Assembly (NCBI RefSeq): GCF_003946885.1
Contig: NZ_RWKQ01000001.1
Span: 58,147 to 122,146 of the forward strand
Direction: 5' to 3'
Length of the DNA: 64,000 bases
From: Specibacter cremeus
Lineage (GTDB): Bacteria > Actinomycetota > Actinomycetes > Actinomycetales > Micrococcaceae
Under the pieces are notes generated by a model. It made no database searches. It was not told the DNA's origin and saw only the letters and a list, made by a program, of their open reading frames with translations. This document shows, in pieces, positions 17,927 through 29,819 of the stretch. The translations under genes were made by a program, and so were the position numbers. Position 1 is the first letter of the stretch; the number at the start of each line of letters is the position of its first letter.

Positions 17927-18080
17927 CAATCAACCCAGGTGAGCCAAGGCACGACGGCGACCATCGCCGTCGTGCCTTTCCTTTCGGGGTGTCGACGGAC
18001 TCGACCACCGCGGCTGGCGCCCCTGTCACGGCGTGTAACAAATGGGCGGGCGCGCCGACGTGCGTTAGCGTGGTGGGCAT

Positions 18081-18195
18081 AGGTCACGAGTGCCAGCGCA
18101 AAACCCCGGTTTGCTGGCCGGCAACCCTCCTTTCGCGGCGGGGTGCCCCGGGTGACGACCTGGCCAGGCCGGAGCGGTCTTGGCAAGCGCGGAGG
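18081..18195 (+). promoter_or_regulatory. SAM-IV riboswitch
   Basis: The sequence follows the SAM-IV layout known from actinobacteria: GGTCACGAGTGCCAGCG (18082-18098), a pairing TTGCTGGCCGGCAACCCTCC (18111-18130), a pseudoknot-type GGGGTGCCCCGGGTGA and closing GACGACC, where GGTC (18082-18085) pairs with GACC (18157-18160). A -10 TAGCGT lies at 18066-18071, placing the RNA start right at the aptamer. The downstream gene is a PLP enzyme of the sulfur-handling class V group. High SAM would lower its expression. The switch mechanism (attenuation or ribosome-site masking near 18224-18229) is not clear by eye. Confidence 0.85.
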
Positions 18196-18236
18196 CCCGG
18201 TGCGCCCGGTCCCCCTTCCTGCACGGGAGTGTTGTC

Positions 18237-19661
18237 ATGAGTTCCGCAATCCTCGAAAAGCCGTCCGTTGATGCCATCGGCGCGGTGGCGCCGCTGCTGC
18301 CGGTCGTCGGCGGCGAGTTGGCCGCCCCGCTGGTCCAGGGTGGCAGCGTCCGGTACGCGAACCTCGACTACGGGGCGTCGGCGCCGGCGCTGGCCGAGGT
18401 GGGCGACCATCTGGCCGAGATCCTGCCGTACTACGCCAGCGTGCATCGCGGCGCCGGGTTCGCCTCGCAGGTGAGCACGTCCGTGTACGAGAACGCCCGC
18501 GGCATCGTGGCCGGGTTCGTCGGCGCCCGCCCCGATGACGCCGTCATCTTCACGCGCAACACGACCGATTCGCTGAACCTGCTGGCCGGTTGCGTCGAGT
18601 CCCTGCTGGCGGCCAACGGGCACGTGGGCGGCGTGTCGAACGACCACGGCGAGGTGCTGTACCTGGACATCGAGCACCACGCGAACCTGCTGCCGTGGCA
18701 GCGGCTGCCGCACCGGTCCGTCGTGGCGGCCGGCTCCATCGCGGCGACGCTCTCCCGCGTGGAGACGCAGCTGCGCGCGGGCAACGTGGTGCTCGTGGCC
18801 GTCACCGGTGCGTCCAACGTGACCGGCGAGGTGCTGCCCGTGGCCGAGCTGGCCGCGCTGGCGCACAGGCACGGTGCGCGGATCGTCGTGGACGCCGCGC
18901 AGCTGGCCCCGCACCGGCGCATCGACATCGCCGCCGCCGGCATCGACTACCTGGCCTTCTCCGGGCACAAGGTGTACGCCCCGTTCGGCAGCGGCGTGCT
19001 CGTGGGCCGCGCCGACTGGCTCGACGCCGGCACACCGCACCTCGCCGGCGGCGGCGCCGTGACCGAGGCGCGGCTGGACTCCGTCCGCTGGACCACCGGC
19101 CCGGCCCGGCACGAGGCCGGCTCCCCCAACGTGCTCGGCGCCGCCACCCTGGCCCGCGCCGTGCAGGTCGTGGCCGGACTGGACCAAGCCGCCTGGCACG
19201 GGCACGAGGCCGCCCTGCGCGCCCACCTGGCCGGCGGGCTGCGCGCCCTGGACGGGGTGCGCGTGCACGAACTGTTCAGCGACTCCGCCGACTACCCGGG
19301 CGCCGGCACCATCGGCGTGGTGAGCTTCTCCGTCGCCGGGTACGACGCCGGCTTCGTGGCCGCCTACCTGTCTGCCGAGCACGGCGTGGGCGTGCGGGAC
19401 GGCAAGTTCTGCGCCCACCCGCTGCTACGCCGGCTCGGCCTGCCGTCCGGGTCGCTGCGCGCCAGCTTCGGCGTGGGGTCCCGGCTGGAGGACGCCCAGC
19501 GGCTGATCGACGGTCTCGCCGCCCTGCTGGCCGACGGTCCCCGGTGGGACTACGTGGTCGACGCCGGCCGCTGGGTCCCCGTCAACGACGCCCGCCAGTT
19601 CCCCGCCTGGGCCCCGAACACGCCCGGCACCGCCGGCGCCTCGCCCTGCACGACCCCCTGA
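18237..19661 (+). CDS. Class V aminotransferase / cysteine desulfurase-like PLP enzyme
   Basis: A 474-residue fold-type I PLP enzyme of the NifS/SufS group. It shows YLDYGASAPAL-like NLDYGASAPALAEV near 40, the cofactor region FTRNTTDSLNLLA near 105, VVDAAQLAPHRRIDIAAAGIDYLAFSGHKVYAPFG near 220-250 with the Schiff-base lysine in SGHK, and a C-terminal SLRASFGVGSRLEDAQRLIDGL. Cysteine desulfurases need a catalytic Cys in a late loop. Here GKFCAHPLL near residue 390 could supply it. Control by a SAM-IV riboswitch argues for a role in sulfur or methionine metabolism. The CGGGAG ribosome site is eight bases upstream of the ATG. Confidence 0.85.
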   Translation: MSSAILEKPSVDAIGAVAPLLPVVGGELAAPLVQGGSVRYANLDYGASAPALAEVGDHLAEILPYYASVHRGAGFASQVSTSVYENARGIVAGFVGARPDDAVIFTRNTTDSLNLLAGCVESLLAANGHVGGVSNDHGEVLYLDIEHHANLLPWQRLPHRSVVAAGSIAATLSRVETQLRAGNVVLVAVTGASNVTGEVLPVAELAALAHRHGARIVVDAAQLAPHRRIDIAAAGIDYLAFSGHKVYAPFGSGVLVGRADWLDAGTPHLAGGGAVTEARLDSVRWTTGPARHEAGSPNVLGAATLARAVQVVAGLDQAAWHGHEAALRAHLAGGLRALDGVRVHELFSDSADYPGAGTIGVVSFSVAGYDAGFVAAYLSAEHGVGVRDGKFCAHPLLRRLGLPSGSLRASFGVGSRLEDAQRLIDGLAALLADGPRWDYVVDAGRWVPVNDARQFPAWAPNTPGTAGASPCTTP

Positions 19662-19720: not shown

Positions 19721-20491
19721 ATGTTACCGGTGGGCGGTCCCAGCCTGGACGATGACAAGCGGCGGGAGCTCGGCGCCGCGTTCCTGTCCGGCGGCGAACA
19801 CTACGACGCCGTCCGTCCCGGCTACCCGGCCGATTCCGTCACCTGGCTGACGGAGGGCCTGGTTCGCCGCGGGGCGGCGCTCGACGTCGGTGCCGGCACG
19901 GGCAAGTTCACCGCCCGGCTGCTGGAACAGGGGTGGGACGTGACGGCGCTGGACCCGTCCGCCGACATGCTCGCCCAGCTGCACGCGAACCATCCGGACG
20001 TGCAGGTGATCGTCGGCGCGACCGAATCCATCGAGCTGCCCGATGGCTGCATGGACCTGGCCACGGTGGCGCAGGCCTGGCATTGGTGCGACCCGCTCAG
20101 GGCCAGCACCGAGCTGGCGCGTGTGCTGCGTCCGGGCGGGACACTCGGCCTGGTCTGGAACCAGCTGGACGTCACGGTTCCGTGGGTGCACCGGCTGGCG
20201 CGCATCATGCATGCCGGGGACGTGCACAACCCGGGATTCCGCCCGGCGGTGGGGCCGGAGTTCACCGGCCTGGTCAACCATGAGACGCACTGGGCCCAGC
20301 CGGTCACGCCGGAGGACCTGCTGGAGCTCGTGAAGTCGCGCAGCTACTACCTGCACGCCCCGGACGCGATCCGGGCGAAGGTGCTGGGCAACCTGGGCTG
20401 GTACCTGTTCGAGCATCTGGGCCACGCCCCGGGCGAGTCGCTTGACCTGCCGTATTTCACGAGCACCTGGCGCGCCCGCTCCGTGCGTTGA
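19721..20491 (+). CDS. Class I SAM-dependent methyltransferase
   Basis: A 256-residue methyltransferase. The N-terminus GEHYDAVRPGYPADSVTWL matches the family of small actinobacterial methyltransferases with Y-x-x-x-R-P-x-Y-P before motif I. Motif I is ALDVGAGTGKFTARLLEQGWDVTALDPSADML near 52, followed by ATVAQAWHWCDP near 110 and RVLRPGGTLGLVWN near 130. The substrate is unknown. A GAGGAG site precedes the ATG, and TAGAGT (19677-19682) is a likely -10. The gene follows the riboswitch-controlled gene after 59 bases and ends before a strong hairpin. Confidence 0.88.
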   Translation: MLPVGGPSLDDDKRRELGAAFLSGGEHYDAVRPGYPADSVTWLTEGLVRRGAALDVGAGTGKFTARLLEQGWDVTALDPSADMLAQLHANHPDVQVIVGATESIELPDGCMDLATVAQAWHWCDPLRASTELARVLRPGGTLGLVWNQLDVTVPWVHRLARIMHAGDVHNPGFRPAVGPEFTGLVNHETHWAQPVTPEDLLELVKSRSYYLHAPDAIRAKVLGNLGWYLFEHLGHAPGESLDLPYFTSTWRARSVR

Positions 20492-29445: not shown

Positions 29446-29455
29446 CATAGGGGTG

Positions 29456-29819
29456 TGGAGATGGGGAGAATTGAACTCCCGTCCGGTGTCGTGTTGCCAG
29501 GTCTTCTCCGGGCGCAGTTTGCTGTGGTTTTTCTCAGCCCCATCCATCACGCAAACATGTGGTTGCCGGGCTCAGCCATAAAAGAGTCCCTCAAGCCGTT
29601 ATGACGAAGACTTGAAGCAGTGGCCCTCTAGATGACGCCAGGATCCGGGGCGAAGGCGTCCCCGGGCTGACGGACTGTCTTACTGCTTAGGCAGCAAGAG
29701 CGAAGTCAGTGCGCTTAGAATTGGCACTTATTGGTTTACAGAGAGCGTTTACGAGATAACCCTGTATCCTCGGCCCGCTTCCCCTGTCTCGACTAACACC
29801 GTCGAAACCGATCATCCCC
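29456..29819 (-). ncRNA. ssrA: Transfer-messenger RNA (tmRNA)
   Basis: The minus strand opens GGGGATGATCGGTTTCGACGG (from 29819) and closes GGGAGTTCAATTCTCCCCATCTCC plus discriminator A at 29456. The 5' GGGGATG pairs with CATCTCC as the acceptor stem, and GTTCAATTC is the T loop. CCA is not encoded. The mRNA-like part contains resume codon GCC and the tag reading ANSKRTDFALAA before TAA, ending in the usual ALAA degron. With SmpB, encoded 2.3 kb upstream in the same direction, it rescues stalled ribosomes and marks the unfinished protein for proteolysis. Length is about 364 nucleotides, normal for actinobacteria. Confidence 0.96.

Follow-up and report, generated by a model that had tools for sequence, protein, structure and literature searches.

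In the locus analyzed here a riboswitch assigns a pathway to an under-annotated enzyme family. The window, i.e. the whole stretch of 64,000 nucleotides that was analyzed, belongs to a soil bacterium; the preliminary description recognized in it, between positions 18066 and 18236, a SAM-IV riboswitch that begins at the predicted transcript start and drives the gene of a class V PLP enzyme resembling cysteine desulfurases, which was thereby placed in sulfur/SAM metabolism. A search with the Rfam SAM-IV covariance model agreed with this identification, the score being well above the gathering score (Table 1), and it is near certain that the riboswitch is genuine; the interval originally reported is made up of the aptamer, the -10 region and a linker of 41 nt that leads to the ATG. 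A TTG start codon at 18180 falls inside the aptamer and was set aside because the ATG at 18237 has a ribosome-binding site. In common with RF00634 as published, the window copy shows a full-length match, an actinobacterial host and a sulfur gene downstream; in contrast, its target is desulfurase-like, whereas the other targets given in the accessible parts of the literature are metXY and MAV_4315, an O-acetylhomoserine sulfhydrylase (PMC3774663, PMC4239095). The copy in the window would be expected to bind SAM.

The location of the aptamer at the start of the transcript, itself a predicted start, is plausible from the putative TAGCGT element that lies ten bases ahead, because elements of the form TANNNT recur 4-16 nt before the aptamer in relatives. 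Among the 122 of 158 ortholog leaders that were usable, such elements occur in 78/78 leaders of the Micrococcaceae set (16.7 expected from shuffled sequences) and in 28/44 of the other leaders, the window included among these 44 (5.5 expected). Further upstream, the terminator-like hairpin that follows hisN is a weak candidate, given that the region contains 2 such sites and 0.9 are expected in shuffled sequences.

Table 1. Features of the window and of two other host loci (prefixed L146 and L147)
Feature	Position	Strand	Basis
Terminator-like hairpin downstream of hisN, 5' of the riboswitch	17954-17973	+	Pattern scan
Putative -10 element TAGCGT (TANNNT)	18066-18071	+	Window sequence; ten bases before the aptamer
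SAM-IV riboswitch aptamer (RF00634)	18082-18195	+	Full-length cmscan match (model 1-116 of 116), 107.9 bits, E 6.4e-19; gathering score 38; also found in the genome-wide search
GCGCGG, aptamer 3' strand and start of the expression platform	18187-18192	+	Invariant in 63 aligned Micrococcaceae leaders
Possible anti-sequestor hairpin GG.GG.CCGG/CCGG.CC.CC	18191-18214	+	Suboptimal fold, -15.9 kcal/mol vs MFE -16.5; covarying counterpart in relatives
Possible sequestor of the ribosome-binding site, hairpin CUUCC-UGCAC-GGGAG	18215-18229	+	Suboptimal fold; counterpart covaries partly in relatives
Shine-Dalgarno-like GGGAG	18225-18229	+	Window sequence; 7 nt before ATG 18237
Probable cysteine desulfurase of 474 aa, class V PLP enzyme in the RxGxFCAH clade	18237-19661 with stop codon (18237-19658 without)	+	Pfam Aminotran_5; nearest solved structures SufS; Lys245 and Cys392 invariant
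Class I SAM-dependent methyltransferase, possibly co-transcribed with the enzyme	19721-20491	+	Methyltransf_11, 74.3 bits
tmRNA (RF00023)	29453-29819	-	159.8 bits
SAM-IV followed by DUF1737-rhodanese-metZ operon (host contig C39)	L146:2671-4704		
Fourth host SAM-IV, weaker, before an 86-93-aa ORF (host contig C25)	L147:4580-4691		67 bits

The pairing of a SAM-IV riboswitch and a gene for a cysteine desulfurase or class V PLP enzyme is not new, given that it is already in print for two streptomycetes. In S. lividans a SAM-IV lies upstream of SLIV_26975, entered in a table as 'Cysteine desulfurase (Thiamine metabolism)' (PMC8079986), and in S. clavuligerus another one lies upstream of CRV15_21540, the gene of a class V-fold PLP enzyme (PMC8269248). 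Both cases share with the window the class of riboswitch and the kind of target, as far as their descriptions allow them to be likened, and come from a different genus. In their accessible portions these publications propose neither a methionine role nor a separate clade, and the S. lividans label refers to thiamine metabolism. A statement that the SAM-IV enzyme serves methionine synthesis is likewise absent from the available portions of PMC3766115, PMC3774663, PMC8079986, PMC8269248, PMC12172450, PMC11356490, PMC4239095, PMC9232105 and PMC2864571; within the same portions we found no methionine role, no separate clade, and no link of the enzyme to rhodanese-metZ and MetM.

Among relatives, the riboswitch and the enzyme are associated almost without exception. 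The enzyme was matched in 123 genomes, from which 11 (identity of 45% or less, comprising SufS and a sister group) were removed to leave 112; upstream regions were checked in 79 of these, one locus per genome, and in 73 a SAM-IV is placed immediately 5' of the ortholog and on the same strand, a count that, like the other cross-genome counts given here, ignores kinship. When the best 80 of 236 loci from named genomes were considered, nearly all of them from Micrococcaceae and with Arthrobacter as the nearest named relatives, a SAM-IV was found in 79, and in the lone exception (L096) the contig ends and leaves just 70 bp before the match. Genes in all the loci of this analysis were called by codon usage, and many of their names were read by eye. 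The six orthologs of the class-wide set that have no SAM-IV are L157, L163, L164 and L169, all members of family f19, together with L159 and L162; upstream of these six no other Rfam riboswitch scored over its gathering score. A 19.5-bit model match is present in L169 at 3 kb from the gene, three sampled f19 genomes gave zero SAM-IV matches, and in L162 the enzyme is followed by genes that, judged from their translations, are cysE- and cysK-like. As controls, 12 canonical SufS loci and 2 sister-group loci showed no SAM-IV at E <= 0.01; the SufS loci gave three chance-level matches of 14.5, 13.6 and 12.6 bits. Operon context outside the Micrococcaceae was uninformative, the commonest neighbour cluster being present in 9/56 loci.

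The target is a class V PLP enzyme similar to cysteine desulfurases, as originally described: its Aminotran_5 match reaches 262.9 bits (cut-off 21.5), and the closest solved structures, by sequence and by fold, are SufS enzymes. SufS is also its best resemblance among the profiles (TIGR01979, 268.6 bits), but the curated cut-off of 475.1 is not reached. A structure predicted from 30 close relatives, a moderate model with a mean pLDDT of 73.9, confirmed the SufS fold and nothing further. From 168 ortholog proteins extracted, 158 distinct ones were kept, and in 158/158 the PLP lysine (SGHK; Lys245), the EHHA histidines and the loop cysteine (Cys392) are invariant. The loop itself follows the motif RxGxFCAH throughout the ortholog group, with one row deviating at the G; it reads RDGKFCAHP in the window enzyme, RSGCFCAHP in two distant relatives, and RxGHHCA in 12/12 canonical SufS loci, the SufS of the host among them. 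In a tree of 46 proteins, which took in 32 of the 158 orthologs, the ortholog group forms one clade (99/96), separate from SufS (100/100) and from the two distant relatives. The host genome carries a canonical SufS elsewhere, beside a NifU_N (SufU-like) gene; the neighbours of the window enzyme are hisN, a methyltransferase gene, mntH and mntR, and neither a SufU-like gene nor a suf operon is present there. Fold, PLP-lysine, histidine and loop cysteine are therefore common to the window enzyme and SufS (TIGR01979; M. tuberculosis SufS, 8odq), but the score below the cut-off, FCAH in the place of HHCA, the separate clade and the canonical SufS encoded elsewhere indicate a paralog that resembles cysteine desulfurases but is distinct from SufS. 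As far as the protein sequence can tell, desulfurase chemistry is likely. A second cysteine near the C-terminus (residue 471) is invariant in the 82/82 orthologs of the Micrococcaceae set and occurs in 25/76 of the others.

Other genes under SAM-IV control were also considered. The host genome has four SAM-IV riboswitches in all, and the three outside the window precede metY-metX, a DUF1737-rhodanese-metZ operon located on a different contig from the enzyme, and an ORF of no known family, for which no Pfam or NCBIfam match was obtained at E <= 0.001. Of 34 SAM-IV loci, 27 went into R1. Rhodanese genes were matched 48 times and 30 of these places were examined for a SAM-IV, which lies ahead of the gene in 29. 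The presence of metZ after the rhodanese gene was checked in the host and in seven further loci (L204 and L294-L299), four of which (L294-L297) were chosen because their coordinates suggested closeness, while L298 and L299 are two further rhodanese places. In L296, rhodanese-metZ is divergent to the SAM-IV-enzyme unit; distances of up to about 9 kb separate the two units in L204, L294 and L295; in L297, rhodanese-metZ is beside a SAM-IV at the contig edge whose target is off the contig; and L298 and L299 have rhodanese-metZ with neither a SAM-IV nor the enzyme nearby. In L224, a DUF1737-like ORF (by eye) is situated just 5' of a SAM-IV that precedes metQ-like genes.

The host also carries two SAM-I riboswitches (L248 and L249, contig C24), so that SAM-I and SAM-IV coexist in it; the SAM-I targets are an sfnG-type monooxygenase gene with a second metY-like gene, and a MetE-like gene (by eye).

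The methionine routes of the genomes that bear the enzyme were compared over the class. Out of 296 class genomes, the enzyme is present in 112, a MetY match (TIGR01326 at E <= 1e-100) in 180, of which 178 are over the curated cut-off, and a MetM match (similarity to one protein at E <= 1e-80) in 192. A match to MetY or MetM was obtained in 112/112 of the enzyme genomes, and neither was obtained in 11 of the 184 genomes without the enzyme. The enzyme is associated with MetM (92/112 against 100/184 without the enzyme; odds ratio 3.9, p 8e-7, kinship ignored) and shows no positive association with MetY (60/112 against 120/184; odds ratio 0.62, p 0.05, kinship ignored). An obligate partnership with MetY was rejected, given that 52/112 enzyme genomes have no MetY match; furthermore, the enzyme is not required for either route, since 100/192 MetM genomes and 120/180 MetY genomes do without it. 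In the 52 MetY-less genomes, a SAM-IV adjoins the enzyme gene in 51, and in 43 no second SAM-IV was found besides it, a number obtained with search filters that can lose weak matches; because of this exclusivity the enzyme would be expected to be of importance to SAM homeostasis in these genomes. SAM-I was examined in 22 of the 52 and in the host: it precedes a ThrC-like gene in 22/22 of the MetY-less genomes (assigned by eye except in L226), and a MetO-like small ORF follows the ThrC-like gene in 14/22, none being called before the end of the locus in the other 8. In the available text of PMC12172450, MetM is a homocysteine synthase of Streptomyces whose gene is preceded by a SAM riboswitch, and metO is sulfur-carrier-like; the resemblance lies in SAM-regulated homocysteine synthesis, present here in MetY-less genomes that carry the enzyme. 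The homocysteine route of such genomes, through MetM, has been described only recently, and the question of what donates the sulfur when homocysteine is made directly becomes testable.

Homocysteine may also be formed by forward transsulfuration, an alternative route for the host and for the MetY-less genomes. In the host genome a gene of the cystathionine gamma-synthase family (655.8 bits against a cut-off of 513) stands beside a CBS-like gene, Cys_Met_Meta_PP enzymes occur in 51/52 of the MetY-less genomes, and bidirectional transsulfuration in Streptomyces is described in the accessible part of a review (PMC11356490). A parallel from another phylum is csd, a cysteine desulfurase gene that belongs to the MetJ regulon of Vibrionales according to the available portion of PMC4239095.

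The original placement of the enzyme in sulfur/SAM metabolism holds, and the comparative data narrow it to sulfur supply for homocysteine synthesis. The explanation that we favour, and regard as reasonably probable as a whole, is that SAM-IV acts as an OFF switch on a SufS-like cysteine desulfurase that feeds sulfur into homocysteine synthesis, probably through occlusion of the ribosome-binding site. With SAM in plentiful supply, the SAM-IV in the 5' leader would lower the expression of this type II (SufS-like) cysteine desulfurase, a hairpin probably concealing the ribosome-binding site once SAM is bound. As SAM falls, the enzyme would be made and would remove sulfur from cysteine, carry it as a persulfide on the loop Cys392 and deliver it to homocysteine synthesis. 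The recipients in Arthrobacter-like hosts would be the sulfhydrylases MetZ and MetY, with the co-regulated rhodanese as a likely intermediary, and in Streptomyces-like hosts MetM with the sulfur carrier protein MetO; MetO donates sulfur as thiocarboxylate. The regulatory and genomic parts of this explanation are well supported: the riboswitch is present and nearly constantly linked to the clade, the catalytic residues are conserved, and rhodanese-metZ is co-regulated and sometimes nearby. From the genome comparisons, a methionine role of the enzyme appears reasonable, and the desulfurase reaction with its sulfur hand-over would follow the course outlined above. We put forward more tentatively, as something that may well not hold in full, a SAM-controlled actinobacterial relay in which the persulfide that a dedicated FCAH-type desulfurase forms from cysteine is passed to a co-regulated rhodanese or a sulfur carrier protein and from there to MetZ, MetY or MetM. 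If true, it would constitute a cysteine-to-homocysteine route that bypasses cystathionine and free sulfide.

With respect to the mode of control, the word 'drives' in the preliminary description is to be corrected, as 'represses when SAM is high' would describe the action of the riboswitch better. The OFF direction would follow from the known behaviour of SAM riboswitches and from the anatomy of the leader. From 81 leaders collected in alignment A3, 73 have their start at 36-56 nt and 63 distinct ones were used. In these 63 Micrococcaceae leaders, a first helix can pair GGA(U/C)(C/U)CC with GG(G/A)GUCC, and a second one can pair the GG(G/A)GUCC 3' arm with GGUC(C/U)C, a segment that reaches into the GAGG ribosome-binding site. 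The first helix is paired in 95.2% of the cells and has a covariation of 0.208 against 0.130 in shuffled alignments (0/500 as high); for the second, or sequestor, helix the values are 89.5% and 0.218 against 0.169 (0/500 as high), with two of five covariation measures not above the shuffles (double-change pairs, 169/500; pair types, 464/500). One column pairs with both of its partners, as C-G-C in 30/63 rows and as U-A-U in 20/63, where related rows may share one event. Since the first helix shares bases of its 5' arm with the conserved GCGCGG at the 3' end of the aptamer, a sequence which we take to have a pseudoknot role, the binding of SAM would favour the second helix. The model of competing hairpins is therefore supported for the family and weak for the window copy, given that the window leader folds no better than its shuffles (z +1.31) and that its two hairpins can coexist.

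Early transcription termination, in place of a hidden ribosome-binding site, would be compatible with the role proposed for the enzyme, and a premature transcription unit is reported at the ortholog-like gene of S. clavuligerus in the accessible part of PMC8269248; nonetheless, we consider it somewhat unlikely, because a pattern scan of the window detected no terminator-like site between the aptamer and the ATG, and because the linker ends at the ribosome-binding site, which in Micrococcaceae is covered by a partly covarying hairpin. The type of platform may differ between lineages. For the window, control of translation would be the expected mode.

Concerning the reaction, the enzyme could instead be a C-S lyase that acts on another sulfur compound (cystine, an S-alkyl-cysteine or the product of an organosulfur monooxygenase) and frees sulfide or a thiol at low SAM, with no persulfide relay. 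The loop motif unlike that of SufS would fit this reading, as would three loci whose gene names were read by eye: in L152 a second SAM-IV (L152:2175-2291), divergent to that of the enzyme, precedes a luciferase-like monooxygenase operon, and genes of the same kind occur close to the enzyme in L154 and L164. The loop cysteine would be dispensable for a C-S lyase, but the desulfurase cysteine, lysine and histidines are all invariant in the orthologs, and the link to rhodanese suits persulfide transfer better; this reading is accordingly unlikely in our judgement. It is very unlikely that the enzyme provides spare desulfurase capacity for iron-sulfur clusters or for thio-cofactors (thiamine, molybdenum cofactor, tRNA), SAM then being an indirect signal. 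Such a role would agree with the SufS fold, the closest solved relatives and the thiamine label printed for S. lividans (PMC8079986, as available in part), but the host already has a canonical SufS next to a SufU-like gene, no Fe-S assembly or thiamine gene was recognized when the neighbour clusters of 56 class-wide loci were read by eye down to the 22nd in size, and the riboswitch class is one that methionine genes share.

Supply of sulfur for homocysteine synthesis stays the preferred reading, and two observations on the surroundings of the gene can be added. Among the best 80 of 236 loci, the methyltransferase cluster is present in 78, directly after the enzyme in 77, and an MntR-like gene occurs within three genes in 79 and an MntH-like gene in 24. 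Finally, a contig labelled Sporosarcina beigongshangi (Bacillota; L065) carries an enzyme gene at 82% identity that groups with the host in the tree, and this record may be a mislabelled or contaminated Arthrobacter.
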